This document shows positions 25,349 through 44,917 of a stretch of 64,000 nt of DNA, one piece after another. Positions within the stretch are counted from its first letter, which is position 1; the number at the start of each line of letters is the position of its first letter. The position numbers were made by a program, and so were the translations under genes. This stretch comes from Mauremys mutica (Eukaryota > Chordata > Testudines > Geoemydidae): NCBI RefSeq assembly GCF_020497125.1, contig NC_059075.1, forward strand, positions 34,880,003-34,944,002, written 5' to 3'. The notes below the pieces were generated by a model. The model made no database searches and was not told the origin of the DNA. It was given only the letters and a program-made list of their open reading frames with translations.

Positions 25349-25524
25349 CAAGTATCAGAGGGGTAGCCGTGTTAGTCTGGTTCTGTAGAAGCAGCAAAGA
25401 ATCCTGTGGCACCTTATAGACTAACAGACATTTTGCAGCATGAGCTTTCGTGGGTGAATACCCACTTCTTCGGATGCAAGTGCATCCGAAGAAGTGGGTA
25501 TTCACCCACGAAAGCTCATGCATC
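25349..25524 (+). mobile_element. Penelope-like element end with inverted tail and target duplication
   Basis: Starts GTATCAGAGGGGTAGCCGTG-like, the same terminus as the Penelope fragment at 28895, runs to CCCACTTCTTCGGATGCA and then turns back on itself. Arms 25438-25478 and 25481-25521 are perfect 41-bp reverse complements separated by AG. The insertion is flanked by AGCATTATT (25340-25348 and 25525-25533). An inverted terminal copy at one side is a known habit of Penelope-like insertions. Confidence 0.88.
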
Positions 25525-28894: not shown

Positions 28895-29505
28895 CAAGTA
28901 TCAGAGGGGTAGCCGTGTTAGTCTGGTCTGTAGAAGCAGCAAAGAATCCTGTGGCACCTTATAGACTAACAGACGTTTTGCAGCATGAGCTTTCGTGGGT
29001 GAATACCCACTTCTTCGGATGCAAGTAGTGGAAATTTCCAGGGGCAGGTTTATATAGGCAAGCAAGAAGCAAGCTAGAGATAATGAGGTTAGTTCAATCA
29101 GGGAGAATAGGCCCTATTCTAGCAGTTGCGTGAAAACCAAGGGAGGAGAAACTGGTTCTGTAGTTGGCAAGCCATTCACAGTCTTTGTTTAATCCTGAGC
29201 TGATGGTGTCAAATTTGCAGATGAACTGGAGCTCAGCTGTTTCTCTTTGAAGTCTGGTCCTGAAGTTTTTTTGCTGCAGGATGGCCACCTTAAGATCTGC
29301 TATAGTGTGTCCAGGGAGACTGAAGTGTTCTCCTACAGGTTTTTTTATATTGCCATTCCTAATATCTGATTTGTGTCCATTTATCCTTTTCCTTAGAGAC
29401 TGTCCAGTTTGGCCGATGTACATAGCAGAGGGGCATTGCTGGCATATATTACATTGGTGGACGTGCACAGGAAGCGAAGAGGATAATAGTACCAAAACTG
29501 CAACT
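28895..29505 (-). mobile_element. Penelope-like element, 3' fragment
   Basis: On the minus strand: the C-terminal endonuclease part of a Penelope-like protein (29495-29094), then about 200 bp of 3' UTR that ends in the same terminus as 25349 (plus-strand start GTATCAGAGGGGTAGCCGTG at 28898). The shared block with CCCACTTCTTCGGATGCAAG confirms the family. The reverse transcriptase is absent, so the copy is 5'-truncated. Confidence 0.85.
29094..29495 (-). pseudogene. Penelope-like GIY-YIG endonuclease domain fragment
   Basis: 133 open residues from the C-terminus of a Penelope-like protein. A Cys-rich lead (CNICQQC, 15-21) is followed by MYIGQTGQSLRKRINGHK (25-42), the GIY-YIG-type nuclease core with the conserved Tyr, Gly and Arg. 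After it come SDIRNGNIKKPVGEHF (about 43-58, with the expected Glu) and the family C-terminus (LQRETAELQFICKFDTIS, GLNKDCEWL). The frame is clean to its stop, but the upstream reverse transcriptase is gone. The domain would nick target DNA in a full element. The first Met is arbitrary because the copy is truncated. Confidence 0.82.
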
Positions 29506-32202
29506 GCAAGAAGAATTTTAGGAAGACAAGCATGTACTTATTCAAAGTGAAACTTGAGTGCAGTACCCCTACTGTTGTAAAAAGTATTATGCAATATATG
29601 ATTATTAGGAAAGGTCATGACCCAAGTTTTACATCTCATTCAAAAAGTGTCATGTCAGGCAGCACAGTGCCTCCCAAACCTGTACTTGGAGAGTGGCTCA
29701 CATGACTTTACCTTCCTTCAGCTCTAAGGCTTTCCTTTGGAGTCTCCCCTCCAAGTATTGAGAGGTGACAGCCGTGCTGTTGTTGAGATTTGACAAGTGG
29801 TACCATGTACCTGTACCTGGATTAGCAGTAGCTAATGTTTTGTTTTGAAAAGTGAAAACTTTGTTTCTAGTTTTCAATTAGAAATTGTATTTTGATTGGA
29901 CATTTTACATATTAAAAGGGGGGGGTTCAAAGTGGCCCTTCAAAACAAAATTTAAAAAAAAAAGTTTTGAATTAACTAAAAATTAAACAAAAACCTGAAA
30001 ATGTTCAGGTCAACTCAAGTTACCGTCCGTCCTTGCCCCCCCGCAAGTTTTCATTTTTAAGGTTTTAAGTTTGCTCCGAACTGGATTTTTGGCTCATTCC
30101 TCCCACCCAAACCGAAAAATCCACTTTTCACTCAGTCCTAATGACCAAAGTGCTAAGAATTTGCAAGGGATTTGGAAGATTACCATAAGTGTTGAGGTGC
30201 TTTGGGGAGGTTGGATACAACTTGGATGACATGTGGGATAAATGCTGGTGTTAACAATGGGAAGAGCATGGAAAGAGGAGCATCAGAAAGAAGGAGAATG
30301 AAAATACTAGGATGAGAGAGGAGAGTAGCCAGAGTGTTATCTGTACTTGGAGGCAAAGAATCAAGTCAGAGGAGTTGGGTAAAGGATGAAATGGGCTCAG
30401 AAAGGGAAATGGTTTTGACTGTACTGGAATGAGAGGAAAGGCAGATCTGAAGAAAGATGCGGGGAGGGACAGAAGAATTAAGAAAATGTCAAAGAGCTTC
30501 AAAAACATCCAAAAGAGGAAGAAACGGTTCTAAGCCTTTGAAATTGAAGATAAGCCACTGAAACAATACTACAGGCCCCATAACTCTTTTTGAAGAGTGA
30601 CAAGCAACTACTACATATTTTCATGGCAGCTATAATGTTGTACCATAATCATAATAAAGGAAATATGAAGTATTTGAAATGACAACTCCCCATTTAAATG
30701 AATAAGACCCAGAGCAGTCAAGACTTAGGCAGAGAAAAACATCATATTCAAAAATAAATGATCAGGCTGTTAAGTAAAATCCCTCACCATATCCATTTTT
30801 AACACCTGAAAGATTATTCTATAATGTTGTGCTGATGCTGACTAGATAGGGTGTAACTTGTTAACATTAGTCAAGCTTCACTGTAAAGTAAATGTCTGGG
30901 GTTCCCCACCCCACCAAGAATACACAGTAAATATATTGATTTATACAAAGGGAACCAGGCTGGTGCTCACGCTGGTTCAGTGTAAAAAAGATAACCCCCT
31001 TTGAATAGAAAGAGCTGTGAGACATTTTAATTTGCAAAAACAATTATTTGGAAGTAATGTTGCTTGAGCTAACTGATATTTACAAAGCTTCACAGATACT
31101 ATATATCGTACCAATACCATAGTTATTTAGAGTGTATTAAGCTTGTCCCATTATATCATTTTCTTTGTTAAATGAAGATTTAGCTATCGGTTAAGAAATA
31201 CTATAATATTTCTACATAGTATCTACCTTAAGGAGATGCTTATTGCTACCATATTATTTACTAGCAACATTAAAGATAAGCTGTTGATTTATTTGTTCTT
31301 ATGGCATATCTGACTATATTAAACCTACGTGTTACTTAATAATCATTCAAGAACCTCTGCTGATGTCTGCAGATCTATATGCTATTCATAAGTATTTGCT
31401 AAATATTTGGACAAACAATTTTCAACTTGTAAGCTGTTCACTTTGAGTACTTGTTATTCATTGTTTATGGTATGTGTGTGCCTGTGCATGTATGTTTATA
31501 GATCAGCCAAGTTATAATTTCTGCTCCTTGGTAGGATGATTGAAACTTTTTAAACAGGAGTAAAACAAAAATAAGATACATCACCTGTAATTTTTATTTC
31601 TCATTATAAACAGCCTCCACCGCTCTGGACAGAAATTTACCAAGATTGTGACTGAAAATTTCAAGGCAAAAAGAGCAAACAACTCCCTAGCATGTGAAAT
31701 TTTTGCATGCAAAAAGGTGTTCATTTAATCAAGCATTATGTGAAAAATGCTTCTACTTAATTAGCTTACACCAATGAATTTTCAAAAGGGATTTTTAAAT
31801 GCTATAGTTTCCATGAAATGAAACTGGAAAATGCAATTGCATTCTAGACCAGAGGACTCACAATAAATGATATAAAGAGTTTGTATCGTTAATTCAGTTG
31901 AGCTGAATTTAAGTGCAAACTCAACATTTTTCACTTATGATTTCTTATCTGTGATGAATGAACCTCAAAGTGCACGGAGGTTTGGTTCTGTAAGCACTAC
32001 AAAGTGCAAATACTTATTTAATCTTATTTGGGTCACTTTTGTGGAGCTACTCAAAAAACCTGAACACTTTCTGCTTCCTGTTAGACTAGAAATAGCATTA
32101 AGGCAGCTTTTTTCATGGGCCTGAGCCAAAGTTTAATGAAGTCAACAGAAAGACTTCAGTGGGCTTTGGATCAGGACTCTTATCAGTTTGTCACCTTCAG
32201 AA
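29506..32202. other. No recognised feature
   Basis: About 2.7 kb of AT-rich sequence with a purine-rich part at 30240-30530 and homopolymer tracts near 29915-29965. No exon, RNA gene or named repeat is recognised. Confidence 0.5.
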
Positions 32203-34426: not shown

Positions 34427-34689
34427 AGTGGCAGCTCAGGCTCACCACCTAAGTACATACAAGGATGTCCAATGAACTTGTACTCAGAGTGGCCAACCCT
34501 GACCACTGCTTGCACTGCTGCGGCTTCACTGGTATTTTTAGGCACTTGCTCAGTCAGAACTAGTGCAGGTATTTCTACATGAGCTGGAAATCATATCATC
34601 CAGCTCCAGTGCAGATAGACCTTAAGATTGTACAAATTTCACAACAATCTCTGTTTGCAGGTTGTCAGGAAAAACTTTGAGAATCCTAC

Positions 34690-35169
34690 TTACTGATAAA
34701 AACAATGAGGATCCTTGTGGCACCTTAGAGACTAAGGAAGGTAATAAAGCTTTGGGCATAAGCTTTCATGGGCTAGAGCGCACTTCATCAGATGCACAAA
34801 GTGAAAAGTACAGGAGCAGGTATAAATACATGAAAGAATGGGGGTTGCTTTACCAAGTGTGAGGTCAGTCTAACGAGAGAAATCAATTAACAGCAGGATA
34901 CCAAGGGAGGAAAAATAACTTTTGAAGTGGTAAGAAAGTGGCCCATCAGAGACAGTGGATAAGAAGGTGTGAGTAGGGAGAAATCAGTATTGGGGAAAGA
35001 TAATTGATTTATCTCATTAGACTGACCTCACACTTGGTAAAGCAACCCCCATCCTTTCACGTATTTATACCTGCTCCTGTATTTTTCACTTCATGCATCT
35101 GATGAAGTGGGTGCTAGCCCACGAAAGCTTACACCCAAATTAAATTTTAGTCTCTAACAGACTAACACA
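34690..35169 (-). mobile_element. Penelope-like repeat with long inverted arms, cut by a hAT element
   Basis: Left arm (about 34752-34893) and right arm (about 34999-35133) are imperfect reverse complements of about 140 bp. They share blocks such as TTTACCAAGTGTGAGGTCAG and AAGCTTTC...GGGCTAG. The right side runs towards a Penelope-like terminus, CAGACTAACAC, where a hAT element begins at 35170. The missing last 24 bp of the terminus lies at 42134-42157 on the other side of the hAT, now inverted. Confidence 0.75.
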
Positions 35170-36750
35170 CAGGGCTGGCCTTACCAGGAGGTGAACTGAG
35201 GCGGCCGCCTCAAGTGACAGACTGTCGGCGGGAGGGGGATGCCAGTAGGACCCAGTGTAGAAAATTGCGTCTGCTGCTGGTGCATATTTATGCTCTCTGT
35301 TCTAGATGCACAGAGATGGTGGAGTGCTGTGCTGGAGGAAGGAGGGCACAAGAGACATAACAGGCAGGCAGGAGAAAAGATGAGAGGGAACAACAGAAAG
35401 CAGGAGCTGCAGGGAGAGAGAGAGGAGGAGCCACCTCTTATGCATCCTGTGGAGCTTGGACTGATTAACACCAGCTTCTCAGGGAGCTTGCTGCTGCTTC
35501 CATGAACCCACTTGAGGAGAACAGGCAGTCAACTGAAGTAGGAGCCAGTTAGGCCCTTAAGATGCTAGTATCTTCCCTCACTCAGGCACTGCTTCCCCTC
35601 ACTCAGGCCTGCTTATTTGTCCCTCCAATTGGGGGGCTACTATCGCTGGCACAGAACAGCAGTCATGAGTGAAAGAAGAAAATGCCCATCTGGGGCAGCA
35701 TTCAGAAAAAGAAAGAAAGCAAAGGAAGCTTTTCTATCTAAGCAGGAAGGAGCTCTGAGATGCATAGACACAAATGTTCATGGTGAGCCTTCCAACTCCG
35801 GTGAGGATGAGAGTGGTGAGAAGATGCCTGATCTTCCAGTTAGTCAGAGTGCAGGTGACCTGGCAGCTACTGCAGCATCCATATCTCCATCTCAAATGGA
35901 TGTAACCAGGCACATTCCTGAAGAAAAATGTAGATCAGAGAAGAGTGTGGTGGAGGCGCAAGAAACAGCTGCTGCTGAGTTTAGTTCTTTAAGACTAGAT
36001 AATCCAGGACTGTGGACCCACTTGAGCAGTAGCCTGGGGGACTTCCTTATACTGCATGGGCCACAGCAAGTGGAAAATTCATGTTCCCCAAAGACAATGA
36101 AAATAGACGTTTCCATCCAACACATTACTGGCATGAAATCCCCAATGGTGACAAAGTGGAGAGGCCATGGCTTATGTACTCAAATACCCAGAATGCTGCA
36201 TACTGTTTTTGTTGCAAACTCTTCCAGGCTAATGTTCCAGCCACATTGGGTTCTACAGGAACAAAGGACTGGAAAAATCTGGCTAGAAATCTGGCATGCC
36301 ATGAGAAGGCAGCAAATCACCAGAGAGCATTCCATAGGTGGAAAGAGCTTGAGATGAGACTAAGGTTAAAGGCCACCATAGATCAGCATCACGAGAAGAT
36401 TGCATCAGAGTTTCTTTGCTGGCAAAATGTTCTGAAAAGGCTCATTGCCATTGTGAGAATGCTTGCTACCCAAAACCTAGCACTGTGTGGCACTTCAGAT
36501 CAGCTGTACATGCCAAACAATGGAAACTTCCTTAAAATTGTGGAGCTGATGGCTGAGTTTGATGCTGTACTCCAGGAGCATCTAAGAAGAGTCATCACTC
36601 AAGAAGTGTACACACACCACTACCTTGGAAAAACCATTCAAAATGAGATCATACAGTTACTGGCAACAAAAGTCAAACAGAAGATTGTGGCAGATCTGAA
36701 GTCAGCAAGGTATTACTCTGTTATCCTGGACTGCACACTTGACATCAGCC
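35170..36750 (+). mobile_element. hAT transposon, 5' half (split by inversion)
   Basis: Starts CAGGGCTGGCCTTACC at 35170, preceded by CTAACACA (35162-35169). It carries about 450 bp of leader and the N-terminal half of the transposase, stopping abruptly after codons for DCTLDIS at about 36750. The missing remainder is on the opposite strand at 44052-42158. The 8 bp beyond that far end read CTAACATG on the same sense, a partner for CTAACACA. Confidence 0.85.
35617..36750 (+). pseudogene. hAT transposase remnant, N-terminal half (TTF zinc finger)
   Basis: N-terminal half of a TTF-type hAT transposase (ZMYM1-like group). Frame one (35617-36080) holds a leader with basic RKRKKAKEAF and an acidic/serine-rich stretch. 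A one-base loss near 36079 shifts the frame. Frame two (36081-36750) begins MFPKDNENRRFHPTHYW and carries the zinc-finger block PWLMYSNTQNAAYCFCCKLF. The DUF4371-like region follows (HEKAANHQRAFHRWKE, LATQNLALCGTSDQLY, YYSVILDCTLDIS). After 36750 the sequence is that of a different element. The zinc finger would bind transposon DNA. Dead because of the frameshift and split. Confidence 0.86.
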
Positions 36751-36813
36751 GGCCCTCCCTACAATTTTGGAAACCCGATGTGGCCCTCAGGCCAAAAAGT
36801 TTGCCTGCCCCTG
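36750..36813 (-). mobile_element. MITE terminal fragment (partner of 44053-44686)
   Basis: On the minus strand it starts CAGGGGCAGGCAAAC, then TTTTTGGCCTGAGGGCC and ACATCGGG, to GGGAGGGCCGG. This is the 5' end of a turtle hAT-type MITE whose body and other end are at 44053-44686. The adjacent 8 bp ACCTAGAA (36814-36821) are the exact reverse complement of TTCTAGGT (44687-44694). Confidence 0.85.
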
Positions 36814-36821
36814 ACCTAGAA

Positions 36822-38096
36822 TGTGCACCAATTAAATAGGGAGAAGTGTATAAATCTTTTCAAAAGGATTCATTTCAAATTCAGGGTGGGGGAGTGAGTT
36901 GGTTCTTGTTTGATCTGAATTAGTTTATCCAGACCCTGGCTAAAGTTGGAGCAATGCAGAACCACATTGCCCTAAAATGTTTCCTGACTTGGCTCCTGAA
37001 GAGTACAGCAGCTGTACCACTTATTAAGAAGGGGCACTTTGTATTCACACACCTCTGTGGCTGGCCAGTTCCACAGCTTTCTTGGAGGAGACCGAGCAAA
37101 CTGACTGTAATTATGACTTGCCCTCAAATGAGGAGTGAAGGTTTTCTGTCATCTTTTTTTCTATTAAGACAGATCTAGGTAGAAACTTTTCACGAAACCC
37201 TCTAACTATGTATTAACAACTACCAAAGTCTCTGAGGATGAAAAGTTTAGGAACAAAAAGGTTTAGCATTTGCACAATTTCAGCAATGGTCAATAGACTT
37301 GATTCCTGCATTTGACATTTTTAATGGAGTCTGAGTCCTGGAAAATAACTTTTGAGTCAATTTAATCTCAATTGGTGGTAGATTTTTATCATGTTCCTAT
37401 TAATTTTATTCTGTAATTTGTCATCTAAATGATAATTTATATCTTTGCTTCATGCCTCTTTAGTTTTAAATAATCATTTAGTGTTTGAGAGCCGTGTGTT
37501 ATAGAGAGAGGCAGATGAACTTTGTTGCTAACCTTGTCCTGTAGCCAGCAGCACATTGTTTTAAAAGACTCAATAGGGTTAAATTTGTCCCTGATGTAAC
37601 TCAGCTTAATGTGTCCCATTGAAGCTAGAGATTTAAGAGACCTATTATTTTCTACCATTTCCTTGCCAATGCAAGATTGTTTCCCACAAAATATTCCCAG
37701 GTGCTTCGACAATCTAGTTTTATATAGATCCCCATGGGTTCATAATGACACTTGACACTATGCAAAAGTCACCTGGTGCTGACTACTTATAAAAAAGTGG
37801 AAATTTCATCAAACCTCACTGAAAGTTTAATTGATGTCTGCAACCATTTTAGTGAGCTTCGGCTCAGTTTTAAATGAATCTGAGCTGAGTTTCAAGTGAA
37901 CCTGCATTGAATTTTGGGAGATGGGGAGAGATTTATGGGTTTGGGTGGAAAATTGTGTGTGGTGGAGTTGTTTTTTTTTTTGCAAGATTCCAGTCACAAT
38001 TTTGCAGTTCCAATAAATCAGGATAAACATCCATTCCTTTGAAACTGAACCTGAACTCCAAAACTTTTTAGGATTCCTCCATCGGCACTCAAGACA
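36822..38096. other. No recognised feature
   Basis: AT-rich unique sequence inside the proposed inverted segment. Short frames only. Confidence 0.5.
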
Positions 38097-38142
38097 CAAT
38101 AATAATAATAATAAAAAATAATAATAATAAATAATAATAATA
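38097..38142. repeat. (AAT)n microsatellite
   Basis: Interrupted AAT repeat of about 46 bases. Confidence 0.97.
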
Positions 38143-38145
38143 CCT

Positions 38146-38255
38146 AGCTGTTATATAGCACTTTTAATTAATAGATTTCAAAATGCTTTATAAAGGTGGT
38201 CAGTACCATTGTCTCTGTTTTTATAGGTGGGGAAACTGAGGCACTGAGGCACAGG
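38146..38255 (-). repeat. MIR/CORE-SINE fragment
   Basis: Plus-strand text TATATAGCACTTTT, CAAAATGCTTTATAAAGG, then TTTTTATAGGTGGGGAAAC and TGAGGCACTGAGGCAC is the reverse complement of a MIR-type core and tail. Confidence 0.75.
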
Positions 38256-38720
38256 CCTGACTCCCCAAAGGTACTTAGGTGCATAACCCCCAGCCTTAGG
38301 TGCCTAAATTCCATTTTAGGCATCACTCTAATCCACAAAAAACTCTCTCAGCTGCAGTCTGAACCCTGTAGGTGCCTAAACTCATTCAGTTTTTTTGCAG
38401 TAAAAGTTAACTAAGTGCCAGTGTTTCTGCCTGTGAGTATATGCACAGCTCTCTCTCACACTCTCATCTAAGGCCCAGAGCAATCCACAAGATAGAATAA
38501 GGTAGGTGCTTCTCCACCAAAGTTGCCTCTGGGGCCCAATCCAGTAGGCATGCTCAGAGGCCACCTAACTCCACACACAACAGCTAGGGAAGGGAGGCAG
38601 CTTTCCCTTTTAACCATTAGTTCAGTGGCTACTGCACTCACCCAGGATGTGTGAGGTGGCCTGTGGTCCCTAGTTTCAAATCTGCCCTCTGACTGATGAA
38701 GAGAAGGGATCTGAACTAAG
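38256..38720. repeat. Dispersed GGTGCCTAAA-type repeat and tRNA-like patch
   Basis: Repeated TTAGGTGCCTAAATTCC-like phrases (38270-38390) resemble a dispersed turtle repeat also seen at 47575-47665. At 38618-38690 GTTCAGTGGCTACTGCACTC and AGTTTCAAATC resemble pol III A and B boxes, so a decayed tRNA-derived SINE is possible. Confidence 0.35.
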
Positions 38721-39406
38721 ATCTGCCAACTCTCAGGTGAGTGCCCAAGTTAGGGTATGGAATATTCTGATTTGGGGCTATCCTATTAAAGTTGTCCCAC
38801 TTTAATTAAATAATTGACTCTTAAGTGGGCCAGAGAGAGAATAAGAATTACTTTATAGCTTCAGCCAGCATGCTGGCTTTGTGACTAGCAGTCTAATGTG
38901 CCTGTCTCTTGTAGCCTGATTTAGGGTGTTGCGATAATATTAATTTGGATAATATGATTTAAGTAACAATATTAATAATACTTAATATTAATAGTATGGG
39001 TTTTAGGCTCTCCAATCTATTTGATCAGAAGATAAAAGTTCTTATCCCGAATCAGGCTCCACAGCATTTACAAAGGACCCTCAGGGCTATGACAGGAAGC
39101 TCACACTGAGACAGATATAGCCGTAAAGTCTTTTTATTAAAATCAATAATAGTAAGTAAATGGTAAAATAACCAGAGTTACAAAGTTACAATTGCATTAC
39201 TGCTATTCAAAAGATGCATATGATAATATAGTATTATATGCAACAAAGCTTTGGTTAATATACTCACACCCTTCCTTGATAACCTGGTGGTAAGACTCAG
39301 GAGCAGCCTTGTGGTTCATGTTTCTCAAGAACTGAGTGAGGGATGCAGTGCTTAGAAGAAACTAATGCTACAAGCTATTAAAGTGAACTTGGGTTTAAGT
39401 TAGTCA
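38721..39406. other. No recognised feature
   Basis: AT-rich unique sequence. Confidence 0.5.
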
Positions 39407-39414
39407 AGTAAACC

Positions 39415-39911
39415 CAGAGGTGAAAGTAAGCCAGTAAGGTTCGGTACAGCCTACCGACAAGAGCCAGTACGCCGTGCTGGACCGCACCGGCTTCCGCAGC
39501 TGGAATTAAAAGGGCTCTGGGTTCCCCACAGCAGCGGAGAGCTCCGAGCCTTTTAAATCCCGCCCACAGCTTCGGTGGCAGGCTGGAGCTGGGATTTAAA
39601 GGGCTCAAAGCTCCTTGCCACTGTGGGGAGCCCAGAGCCCTTTAAATCCCAGCTGGAGCTGCGGTGGGGATTTAAAGGGTCCGGAGCTCCGCAGCAGCTG
39701 GAGCCCCGGGTCCTTTAATTTGCCTGTGAGCCCCAGGGGCTCCCAGCCACCTCTGCAGCTGGAGCCCCGGGTTGATTTAAAGGCCCTGGGGCTCCCAGCC
39801 ACAGCCAGTGCCCCAGGGCCTTTAAATCTTAAGAGGCCACGCCTCTTCTGGTTGAGGCCACCCCAGGACTCTGGCAGTACTGGTAAGTCCTGTAACTTAC
39901 TTTCACCCCTG
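39415..39911. mobile_element. hAT-type MITE with internal sub-repeats
   Basis: Ends CAGAGGTGAAAGTAAG and CTTACTTTCACCCCTG. Perfect 8-bp duplication AGTAAACC at 39407-39414 and 39912-39919. The interior repeats modules such as GGATTTAAAGGG, GGAGCCCCGGG and GGGCTCCCAGCCAC in both orientations, about 90 bp apart. Confidence 0.95.
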
Positions 39912-39919
39912 AGTAAACC

Positions 39920-40617
39920 CTAATAAACAAAGAATAAAACTTAGGGAAGCCAAGCTTAGCCTAGTTCCTTTGAAACTTAAAGTATAAGAACAAGTATAGC
40001 CTACTAATAGTAGCAGTCATCGTAGATAGAATAGCGTTAGGGTACACTTACCCCATAGGCTAGTATGTATGTGCATATTGTTGGCAGGTATGTACGCACA
40101 TCAGTCTTTTGTGGTGTACTTGTTAAGTCTGTGGGTACAACATTGAACTCCCCCACCCCCTGCTGCTATTCTCCATTGTCTGTTGGTCTAAATAAAAGAT
40201 CATAGACATAGGCATAGGTGCTTTATCTAGTTGGTTATAGGATAAACAAGATAAAGGTCCACTTTGCTTTCTGAGTAAAAGGTCTTAATATAGATATGCT
40301 AACTTTGCTTTAGCTTACCAAACAGGATATGGCCTGTAGGTCTCTTGCATTACAGCCAAACTTGGTTTATAAATGTATATTAAAAATTATTTCAATAAAC
40401 CAAATACTTTATAAGAAAAGATAACTATATCTATATATACACACACTCAAGCAAGCAGGTTAGTCCTATAGGCTACACTCTCCTCATTCATTGTATAAGC
40501 GCTTAAGCATTTAACTCAGGCTTTGTGGAGCTCTGGGGTTTTTTTTGTTTGTTTGTTTGGGTTTGTTTTTTCCCCCTAGGCACCATGATGCTATGTCTAC
40601 GTCCCTTTTATGGATCT
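39920..40617. other. No recognised feature
   Basis: AT-rich sequence with a (GTTT)n stretch near 40540-40570. Confidence 0.5.
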
Positions 40618-40712
40618 GAGCTAAAGTGACTTGTCCAAGGTCACCCAGGAGCAGAGCCCAAATCTCCTGAGTGCCACTCAGAACTCCACTAGGACACACT
40701 GAAATGATTTTG
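40618..40712 (-). repeat. MIR/CORE-SINE fragment
   Basis: Plus-strand text AAAGTGACTTGTCCAAGGTC, ACCCAGGAGCAGAGCC and CAAATCTCCTGAGTGCC is the reverse complement of the MIR core. Confidence 0.78.
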
Positions 40713-41784
40713 AGCTAGTCCATCCCCACCAGTTCTTTCTTCTTTATCATGTATTGGGCTTGATCTTGTAGCTCTTACTCACAAAAGTGCTGGAATAGGG
40801 GTGCTGGGAGGTGCTGCCATACCCCTTGGCTTGAAGTGGTTTCCATTATATACAGGGATTACAGTTTGGTTCAATGGCTTTCAGCACCCCCACTGTACAA
40901 ACTGCTCCAGAACCCATGCATGGGTAGTCCCAAGAAAGGGACTAGATGCAAAGCAGTCAGTAGCATCTTCATCTTCAGAGGTAGTAAGTGACCATCAAAA
41001 TCAAAGTGAGCAGGTGCTCAGCAGCGCCATTGAAAAACAGGACATGAACTTTTTGAATAGTCAAGAGCCTGTGTTTAACTGTCAATCTGATTCAGACATT
41101 TCCTATTGAGAATGAAAGAAAATATGGAAAAATATTCATTGTAAATCTGTTAACTCTTCCCCTGTGCCTCTTACACCAGCTGCATATGCCAAGATTCAAG
41201 CTCATTTTATGCAGTGAGGGCTGCTGGATCTGGCCCGTTGTTTCCAAAGTATGTTTGTATTTTTAAGTGCCTTGTAATGTTAATCGTGAATTCATTCCCA
41301 CCTCCCAGCCAAAGGCTTTCAGTCTCTGCAGTTTATCTTTCTAAAACAAATTGACAATCAAATTAAACAAATTGAATTTTAACCACTATAAATAATCCTG
41401 AGCAAGATGCTCTAAATCTAAGCTCTTCTGTCTGTGGATGGGATTTCTTAGAGGTCTAAGCCTTTGGTTCCACAGAGGCTCCATGCTTCAAACCTAAGGT
41501 ACAAATCTCATCTATTTCAACTTGATCTTTCCAAAGGAAATAAACTGTTACATCAGAAGGAGATGGAAACCAAAGCCTAGATGATTCAAACATCTTCCAA
41601 ATGTTGAGAAGATTTGGAACCAAATTTGAACCTTGTAGGATGGCCTCTTTTCCAAGTTCCATGCAGTTTTGTGTATGAATCTTTCATACTTGACCTAAAA
41701 GCCAGGGCCCTGTTTACTTTACATGGACATCAAAGATTCCCTGACACATTTTATAAAAAATTTGTCCCTGCCAAAATTTCACGT
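40713..41784. other. No recognised feature
   Basis: Unique-looking sequence. The 102-residue frame at 40801-41109 has no motif I recognise and no flanking splice context that convinces me. Confidence 0.45.
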
Positions 41785-41792
41785 CTCCCTAA

Positions 41793-41986
41793 CAGGGCCG
41801 GCTCCAGGGTTTTTGCCACCCCAAGCAGAGGGGAGAGGGAAGCCGCGATCAGCGGCAATTCGCCGCTTTCTTCTTTGGCGGCATTTCGGCGGCAGGTCCT
41901 TCCCTCCGAGAGGGACCTGCCGCCGAAGAGCCTGACCTGCAGCCCCAAGCACCTGCTTGCTGAGCTGGTGCCTGGAGCCGGCCCTG
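41793..41986. mobile_element. Short GC-rich hAT-type MITE with 8-bp target duplication
   Basis: Ends CAGGGCCGGCTCCAGG and CCTGGAGCCGGCCCTG, near-perfect inverted repeats. Duplication CTCCCTAA at 41785-41792 and 41987-41994. Sub-terminal CCCCAAGC motifs are shared with the elements at 42708, 56636 and 58580. Confidence 0.96.
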
Positions 41987-42133
41987 CTCCCTAATACTCT
42001 ACCATTTGTCTATTACCCAAAAGAGAAACAGGGGAGGCAATTGTTCTGGAACATTTTCCAACAACACATAGTTGAGATAAATGACTAAGCTGGGATCATA
42101 TGGGCCCATATTGTAAGACAGTTATCAGTAAGT

Positions 42134-42157
42134 AGGTTTCAGAGGTAGCCATGTTAG
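42134..42157 (-). mobile_element. Displaced Penelope-like terminus
   Basis: AGGTTTCAGAGGTAGCCATG-like text is the missing end of the Penelope-like repeat at 34690-35169, found beyond the far end of the hAT that split it. It lies on the opposite strand because of the proposed inversion. Confidence 0.7.
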
Positions 42158-42414
42158 CAGGGCTGGCCCACAACATTTTGGCACCTGAGGCGGGGAGCTA
42201 GCTTGGGCCAAAACTTTGAAAGGTCTCAATTCTTATTCTTCTTCTGCTTCTCTCATGGTACTGCTCTGCTACCTACCCCAATAAAGGAGAACTAACAACT
42301 TAAAATGCCTTGTTCAAAAATTTTAAGTAACACTTAACTTTCAAACACCTGAACAGCAAATGTAACTTTTCTTGTCTGCATAGTAAACATTGGCATTTTT
42401 ATCTGTTTGAATAA

Positions 42415-44052
42415 TCAAAGTGGTGCTTTCCCTGCCTTCTTGGTTTCAAAGATTTGAACTGTTTCCTGAAGGTCCACAGTCTGGGCCAGCTCATGCTTTA
42501 TTGATATGGTTGCAAGGCTGACAAGCATCTCCTGTGTCATTGTGGAGCGTAGATGTGTTTTTATTAACGTCAGCTTGGAGAAGCTGCGTTCTCCACTGGC
42601 AACTGTTACAGGAAGTGTTAGAAGTATGCAGAGAGCAACAAAAGCATTTGGAAAGAGGGTGGTCATCTTATTTGTGCACATATATTCCAGAACAGCCTTT
42701 AGAGTTGCAGGGGCGGTTTTAGCTTTTTTGCCACCCCAAGCACGAATTGCTGCCGAATCCACGGGATCGGCAGAGCTCCTGCAGGAACGCCCCCAAAGGC
42801 TGCCTGACTGATGCCCTCGCAGGGACCGGCAGGGTGCCCCCCGTGGCTTGCCACCCCAGGCACGTGCTTGGAGTGCTGGTGCCTGGAGCCGCCACTGTAG
42901 AGTTGATCCTGCTGAAATGTATCTTGAAAGGGCTTTCAGTTCATCACCTAAATCACTCGCATCAATATCGCGCATGTCATCATGTTTCAACACTGTCTTT
43001 AGTGCCCTGCATTGCTGGTGTAGGTCGTCTTCAGGTATAGTGAGGTGTTTTGGAATATCATACAACATCCCAAATATACTGCTGTGTTCCTTGAGCTGCA
43101 TGAAACGTTCAGCTGACTGTATTGCACAATCTAGCACCTGGTTAAAGAATTCAACTTTGAATTGTTGTTTTGGGTCTCTTATGGGATTCTGCCATGCCTC
43201 GTAATTAATATGTTGTCTTCTTCAGTGACTTGTATTCTTGAATGGATGGGAAAATAGCTTCAGTGTGAAGTCCCTCTGCCAATTTCTGTGCACTCTTCAG
43301 AACATTTTGAAATCCCTCATCTGACCAGTAAGACAGTTGTTCCATTGCTCCAGATATATCAAGGTCAACACCTTTGGAGTCTCTTGCTTACAACATTTAT
43401 TTCAAATGGTATGTCATGCCACAACACTAAGCCACACAGAAATTTGAAGTTATGTATGTTTCTGGTGATTCCATTTCCCTCTGCCACTGTTCTCCCATGA
43501 ACAGTTCCTGTCATAGCATTATCCTCCATAATGGCAACTATGGCATTTATCTTCCCAATTTGGTGTGTGTTAGGCTTTATTGCCTCCACTCGACTTTCCC
43601 ATCTTATGGCACTCGGTGGTTTCAGTGTCAGAGAGGATATTCCCAGATTTTGCTTCAAAATTTGCCATTGATGATTTGATGCAGAGAAAAATGCACAGAT
43701 GCTTTAAAATAATTTAGAAAATTCAATAGCCTCACTAGAAGCTGATGCTGCATCACTGACCACCAAGTTAAATGAATGAGAACTGCATGCAACAAAAAAG
43801 CTCCAGCATTTAATTCTCGGATCTGTGTCTGCACTCCTCTGTTCTTTCCTCTCACCTTGGCACCATTATCGTAGCCCTGACCTCTCATGTCAGCTATTGC
43901 AATTCCCGTATCTTCCCGCTTTTTAAGAAGCACATTTGTCATACCAGCTCCTGTAGTATCAATGTCAATAAATTCTAGAAAATGCTCTGACAGTCACCAT
44001 TGCAGGGACACTTTTACTAGGTTCTGTTGTGGTTGCAAAACTCACCGTTAAA
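42415..44052 (-). pseudogene. hAT transposase remnant, RNase H-like core and dimerisation domain
   Basis: C-terminal half of the TTF-type hAT transposase. Blocks in order: EHFLEFIDIDTTGAGMTN and MRGQGYDNGAKVRG (43995-43850), GISSLTLKPPSAIRWESRVE with IHNFKFLCGLVLWHDIPFEI (43658-43365), and KQQFKVEFFNQVLDCAIQSA (near 43160). The last open stretch (43137-42415) includes the C-terminal hAT dimerisation signature VASGERSFSKL. Frameshifts lie between these blocks. A 190-bp MITE plus its 8-bp duplication sits in this last frame and adds exactly 66 codons without a stop. The N-terminal half is at 35.6-36.75 kb on the other strand. Confidence 0.88.
42708..42897. mobile_element. MITE nested in the hAT transposase gene
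   Basis: Ends CAGGGGCGGTTTTAGC and GGTGCCTGGAGCCGCCACTG. Duplication TAGAGTTG at 42700-42707 and 42898-42905. It shares the GCCACCCCAAGCACG sub-terminal motif with 41793. It interrupts the host gene between codons for ISAGSTL and KAVLEYM. Confidence 0.95.
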
Positions 44053-44686
44053 GTCCCCTGCTTCTTGCCCCCTGATGGCCCCCCGGGACTCCTGCCCCAT
44101 CCACACCCCTCTACTCCCTGTCCCCTGACTGCCCCTAACCCCCCCGTCCCTTCCAACCCCTCCTCTCATTCCTGACTGCCCCATCCAACCACCCCATCTC
44201 CCTGACAGCTCCCAGAACCCCTGCCCCGACCCCACTACCCCATCCAACCCACCCTCCTTCCTGACTGCCCACTCCCCGGAACCCCTGCCCCCATGTTCTC
44301 CTCCCTGGCCCCGCTATCCACACCCCTACCTCCTGACCACCACCTGAACTCCCCTGCCCTCTATCCAACCCCACCTGCTCCCTGCCCCCTTACTGCGCTG
44401 CCTGGAGCACCGGTGGCTGGCAGTGCTACAGCCACGCCGCTCAGAGCACAGAACAGGCAGCCGCGCCACCACACAGCTCAGAGCACCGGGTCAGGCAGCA
44501 GCTCTGCAGCTGCGCTGCGTGGCCGCCCAGAGCATTGTGCCGATGGTGCAGTGAGCTAAGGCTGTGGGGGAGGGAGAACTGCAGGGGAGGGGCCAGGGGC
44601 TAGCCTCCCAGGCCAGGAGCTAAGGGGCCAGGCAGGAGGTCCCATAGGGCGGATCTGGCCTGCGGGCCATAGTTTGCCCACCTCTG
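44053..44686 (+). mobile_element. GC-rich MITE body and 3' end with C-rich minisatellite
   Basis: A C-rich array of diverged units (CCCCTGACTGCCCC..., CCATCCAACC, about 40-60 bp spacing) occupies 44053-44400. It is followed by a GC-rich unique part and the end GCGGGCCATAGTTTGCCCAC CTCTG. The 5' terminal repeat is missing here and is found, inverted, at 36750-36813. Beyond the end is TTCTAGGT, the reverse complement of the 8 bp beside that fragment. Confidence 0.85.
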
Positions 44687-44917
44687 TTCTAGGTCCAACC
44701 TAGGGACATTGTGGGATTTTCACCTCTCTGTAGCATGGGGCATGGATTGTCTGTTGGGGTCATTTGGGTATATCCCAACTAATCTATTCCTTGCCATTGG
44801 AGGGGCCTCGGGCATTGGTAGCACCATGGTCTCTTCTGTTCTTTGTGTCCCACAACAATTTAAGCCTACTGAGGACTCAAATGCTTTTGTCTAACTCAAA
44901 CCTTTGGGTTCAGTATA

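Follow-up and report, generated by a model that had tools for sequence, protein, structure and literature searches.

Inversions produced in maize by alternative transposition of Ac/Ds elements take their breaks from the transposition of element ends. We describe here a 7.3-kb inversion in the turtle Mauremys mutica, within a stretch of 64,000 nucleotides (hereafter the window; assembly GCF_020497125.1, contig NC_059075.1, positions 34,880,003 to 34,944,002), which can be read from a hAT transposon and a GC-rich hAT-type miniature inverted-repeat transposable element (MITE) broken at the same two junctions, together with the Penelope-like element (PLE) tail that hosts the hAT. It presumably shares with the maize system the presence of hAT-superfamily elements at an inversion, and differs from it in that the element ends are untouched. 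In Drosophila buzzatii, inversions arose through ectopic recombination between two copies of one transposon, Galileo, and left chimeric copies behind (PMC2775673). As at our locus, the inversion is betrayed by target duplications whose copies are reverse complements of each other across the segment, whereas the elements here are two different ones, broken internally and without homology. A survey of inversions between human and chimpanzee places end joining among the repair routes and reports deletions in 12 of 49 recombination-mediated inversions (PMC2603318). The likeness lies in an inverted segment with small breakpoint losses and junctions within repeats; the difference is that those 49 cases recombined inverted pairs of L1 or Alu (PMC2603318), and no such pair was found here. 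By title or abstract start, we found no paper describing the present locus in an incomplete literature collection.

A single flip of about 36751-44054 restores three elements together, namely the hAT transposon, the MITE and the PLE tail. The best explanation, and in our judgment a very probable one, is one simple inversion through two double-strand breaks and end joining. The features involved are listed below, with positions counted from the first letter of the window.

34687-34699, plus strand: left copy of the 13-bp PLE target duplication (TACTTACTGATAA), identical at 13/13 positions to 42122-42134 read as its reverse complement
34700-35169, plus strand: left part of the PLE tail, host of the hAT; left edge placed from the duplication
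35162-35169, plus strand: left copy of the hAT target duplication (CTAACACA), agreeing at 6/8 positions with the right copy after the flip (CTAACATG)
35170-36750, plus strand: 5' part of the hAT, with the N-terminal transposase half
36749-36751, no strand: junction A, between the hAT and the MITE end; microhomology up to 2 bp (CC)
36751-44054, no strand: inverted segment, delimited by flank and junction matches; right edge uncertain by 1-2 bp
36751-36813, minus strand: 63-bp terminal piece of the MITE, 93-97% identical to the ends of the copies L002-L008
36814-36821, minus strand: MITE target duplication, copy within the inverted segment (ACCTAGAA)
42122-42134, minus strand: right copy of the PLE target duplication, inverted
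42135-42157, minus strand: PLE terminus (CTAACATGGCTACCTCTGAAACC), containing the hAT duplication at 42150-42157
42158-44055, minus strand: 3' part of the hAT, with the C-terminal transposase half (Dimer_Tnp_hAT); right edge uncertain by 1-2 bp
44053-44056, no strand: junction B, between the hAT and the MITE body; microhomology 0-1 bp
44055-44686, plus strand: MITE body and other terminus, with 45 matches besides the window's own
44687-44694, plus strand: outer copy of the MITE target duplication (TTCTAGGT), beyond the inverted segment

The sequences quoted in an earlier note on this DNA were all found at the positions claimed there, including the two 8-bp MITE flanks, which are exact reverse complements of each other. 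As assembled, the flanks match directly at 6/13 positions for the PLE, 4/8 for the MITE and 1/8 for the hAT; once the segment is flipped, these values become 13/13, 8/8 and 6/8, respectively. Random pairs from the window, in 2,000,000 draws each, gave 42 matches of 13/13, 93 of 8/8 and 11,237 of 6/8 or better. The earlier note had stated that flipping turns both the MITE and the hAT pairs into direct repeats. For the MITE this is exactly what is seen, and for the hAT it holds in part, the rest needing CpG decay: CTAACACA and CTAACATG may be two single-transition CpG-decay products of CTAACACG, which would explain the 6/8 match.

The hAT inserted at the last bases of a tail that we take to be Penelope-like and whose stretch 34990-35161 matches other places in the genome at 93-96%. 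After the flip, this tail ends in CTAACATGGCTACCTCTGAAACC followed by TACTTACTGATAA, matching 34687-34699 as a direct duplication. The restored terminus had already been claimed, while the 13/13 duplication is new to this analysis. Within the same tail, 34751-34889 and 35001-35139 form a 139-bp inverted repeat, 91% complementary.

Three MITE-like elements with ends chosen by eye served as internal controls, all of them wholly within the inverted segment.

39415-39911, no strand assigned: MITE-like element with a direct 8-bp duplication (AGTAAACC)
41793-41986, no strand assigned: MITE-like element with a direct 8-bp duplication (CTCCCTAA)
42708-42897, no strand assigned: MITE-like element nested in the C-terminal half of the hAT, with a direct 8-bp duplication (TAGAGTTG)

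Their duplications are direct and match at 8/8 in all three cases, as expected if only elements cut by a breakpoint or spanning one are affected. The element at 39415-39911 also has internal inverted repeats of the GGGATTTAAAGGG type.

To place the junctions, we compared them with matches elsewhere in the 2.48-Gb genome; the counts cover the best ~40 candidates per query. When hAT sequence up to 36760 served as the query, all 39 other matches listed stop at 36748-36750, which agrees with the break proposed earlier at 36750. A query spanning junction A returned 39 other listed matches, all starting at 36746-36753 and thus reaching at most five bases into the hAT. At junction B, the join of hAT and MITE described in the earlier note is present, and its position needs correction: because all 39 other listed matches to the spanning query end at 44054-44057, the break lies 1-2 bases to the right of 44053, at about 44054/44055. 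Among the 40 scored matches listed, the window itself is the only one to cross either join.

The genomic copies of the hAT show how its two parts belong together. The match to the C-terminal half follows that to the N-terminal half on the same strand in 29/29 fetched copies, and exactly 15 bp separate the BLAST edges of the two window halves in 28 of them; the remaining copy (L030) has these bases too, plus a separate nearby deletion. As many as two extra bases beside junction B are compatible with the hAT, and as many as two at junction A with the MITE, so that the loss at the break amounts to 13-16 bp relative to the genomic copies. The rejoining of the transposase by the flip, with few codons missing, had been anticipated and is borne out by these copies. 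We built a hAT consensus from 25 of the 29, omitting L030, L031, L032 and L037 (split or short matches to the C-terminal half) and retaining the badly aligned L021. The N-terminal half has 78 differences from it in 1,560 sites (5.0%). The C-terminal half, taken as far as the nested element, has 62 in 1,151 (5.4%; P-value = 0.66 between the halves, Fisher test), and the rest of the 3' part has 12 in 300 comparable sites (4.0%). This equal divergence is consistent with the two halves having been one single element. Pfam returned Dimer_Tnp_hAT in the C-terminal half above cut-off (E = 1.3e-9) and a weak match to DUF4371, below cut-off, in the N-terminal half. The dimerisation domain and an 8-bp target duplication place the split transposon in the hAT superfamily. 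In a search of eight copies with a simple end-recognition pattern, both ends were recognised in one (L016/L082), and this copy has an 8/8 duplication (CTAAGAGT).

The MITE gave a parallel result. Of 36 fetched copies, 33 carry its end piece and body in this order, collinear and on the same strand; in the other three (L049, L058 and L065) the end piece was unmatched at first and was recovered by a more sensitive search. Alignment with consensus sequences was one test set by the earlier note, and the pieces of both hAT and MITE are collinear with genomic copies once flipped. Contrary to what had been supposed, the MITE is not rejoined in full: relative to the copies used to gauge the loss, 9 of the 36, roughly 36-68 bp are missing, after hand subtraction of 1-4 bases still present in the window (the raw values of 39-68 undercount the true gap by one base). 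Target duplications were scored in 30 of the 36 copies, the other six having one end unmatched, with a shift of at most 2 bases permitted per end. They are direct at 8/8 in 20/30 copies and at 7/8 or better in 27/30. Since the targets resemble each other, we used mismatched pairings of flanks as the null, and only 4 of 870 such pairings reached 8/8, all of them involving two pairs of copies that look like duplicates. Within each pair (L042/L043 and L049/L058) the copies sit on separate contigs, share their target duplications and are equal or almost equal in length, which points to duplicated segments in the assembly.

In comparisons of one copy per element (L013 for the hAT, L053 for the MITE), the ancestral breakpoints showed no homology above 200 single-base shuffles: the longest common word was 8 on either strand, compared with a mean of 7.6 and a maximum of 12 in the shuffles. 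The preference of the earlier note for end joining over recombination, based on the lack of long inverted homology, is supported by this comparison. Since the elements at the two breakpoints are unlike and, in this comparison, share no homology above shuffles, we rejected recombination of the Galileo, Alu or L1 type, which joins inverted transposon copies.

Two double-strand breaks repaired by end joining are favored because DNA is lost at both sites, no duplication is seen and homology is lacking. The locus combines collinearity after a single flip, no inverted homology, small losses and 0-2 bp of microhomology, as two breaks joined end to end would leave. We infer the order of events, the union of both breaks in one event and the repair pathway as follows. 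The PLE tail would have inserted first, making its 13-bp duplication, and the hAT would then have entered the PLE terminus with an 8-bp duplication. The GC-rich MITE would have inserted about 5.3 kb away, again with an 8-bp duplication. Later, two double-strand breaks, in the hAT transposase gene and in the MITE, would have freed the 7.3-kb piece, which may then have been rejoined backwards via non-homologous end joining with the losses given above.

The same inversion could have formed by template switching during replication, through microhomology-mediated break-induced replication (MMBIR) or fork stalling and template switching (FoSTeS), instead of by two breaks and end joining. The microhomology of 0-2 bp at the junctions would allow it, and MMBIR has been proposed for microinversions of 17-33 nt between human and chimpanzee (PMC8755829). 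Those microinversions are, however, far shorter and flanked by inverted repeats (PMC8755829). Moreover, 0-2 bp is the chance level for blunt joining, and DNA was lost at both breakpoints, where neither duplication nor templated insertion is seen. We therefore regard template switching as unlikely.

Several points weigh against an end-joining inversion, or against details of it. All evidence comes from one assembled genome, and both junctions lie within high-copy repeats, where an assembly error could have placed the segment backwards. The match of the hAT flanks is just 6/8 and depends on the reading by CpG decay. Of 12 other PLE tails fetched, six reach the hAT target site and three of these read CTAACACG; two further tails in the window also read CTAACACG, but were found with a search pattern that already contained it. 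The size of the MITE loss varies with the reference copy chosen. Finally, the gapped BLAST identity is lower in the C-terminal half of the hAT (mostly 86-90%) than in the N-terminal half (about 95-96%). This gap vanishes when only substitutions are scored, and the copies had been selected by their match to the N-terminal half. Different origins for the two halves, the idea prompted by gapped identity, find no support in the substitution-only comparison.

For an assembly error in particular, the chances appear very small. The window has no Ns between 30001 and 50000, and an inner stretch of the segment (36830-37800, 971 bp) is present in full only once in the assembly, where it returned, beyond itself, two matches of ~70 bases only. 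A misoriented segment is normally bounded by inverted repeats, and nothing of this kind exceeds the shuffles here. Nor would an error of this kind remove 13-16 bp and tens of bp precisely at the joins.

Both elements occur in many copies, with 1,251 first-look candidates for the hAT and 5,538 for the MITE, and four unrelated truncated fragments could in principle resemble their halves; this we consider hardly credible and reject, as the pieces are complementary without overlap, the hAT halves are equally diverged and one flip restores three flank pairs. Inversion driven by a transposase, for example by alternative transposition as in Ac/Ds, would suit the hAT-type elements at both breakpoints and is extremely improbable, as the breaks are internal to elements that both retain their termini and flanking duplications; with breakpoints away from the termini, we rejected it.

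We also considered that the break site in the MITE was not random, and that, through a GC-rich hairpin, this family might break repeatedly and so give rise to small inversions in the lineage, which we judge quite improbable. The DNA lost at the MITE break holds a short GC-rich hairpin in a minority of copies, the stem being present by motif count at 9 of 36 loci. In L053 the lost stretch has an 8-bp stem and, as a whole, a folding energy of -28.1 kcal/mol (RNA parameters, without shuffle control). The corresponding stretch of L002 is just a little more stable than its shuffled versions (z = -1.68, with 10 of 200 shuffles equally good). A hairpin as the cause of MITE breakage is unsupported.

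The inversion is younger than the insertions of the hAT and the MITE, and the 5% divergence of the hAT sets no more than a loose upper limit on its age, in the tens of millions of years or beyond. At a rate of 1e-9, this divergence would correspond to about 50 million years, a value that is not firm. The neutral rate quoted for crocodilians, 3.9e-10 (PMC4299795), would give about 130 million years; neither value is firm because the hAT copies were chosen for similarity. The evolutionary rate of turtles is given as about a third of that of human (PMC4054807).

The event is an ordinary break-and-rejoin inversion, unusually well documented, and involves no new mechanism. It can be read from a single genome, the mobile elements and their target duplications serving as internal rulers that locate the breakpoints to within 1-3 bp and allow the losses to be estimated. 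The locus is valuable as a clean worked example, and a genome-wide test for split elements whose duplications are reverse complements could count inversions of the end-joining kind with no need for an outgroup.

Further PLE sequences lie elsewhere in the window. Two 100-bp copies of a PLE tail (25382-25481 and 28927-29026) are direct, 99% identical and 3,545 bp apart, and an inverted arm adjoins the copy at 25382-25481. We take this pair to resemble the pseudo-long terminal repeat (pseudo-LTR) structure of a Penelope-like element. Shortly beyond it, on the minus strand at 29094-29537, is an open frame of 147 codons with a YIGQTGQSLRKRINGHKSD stretch, presumably akin to the GIY-YIG endonuclease of PLEs.

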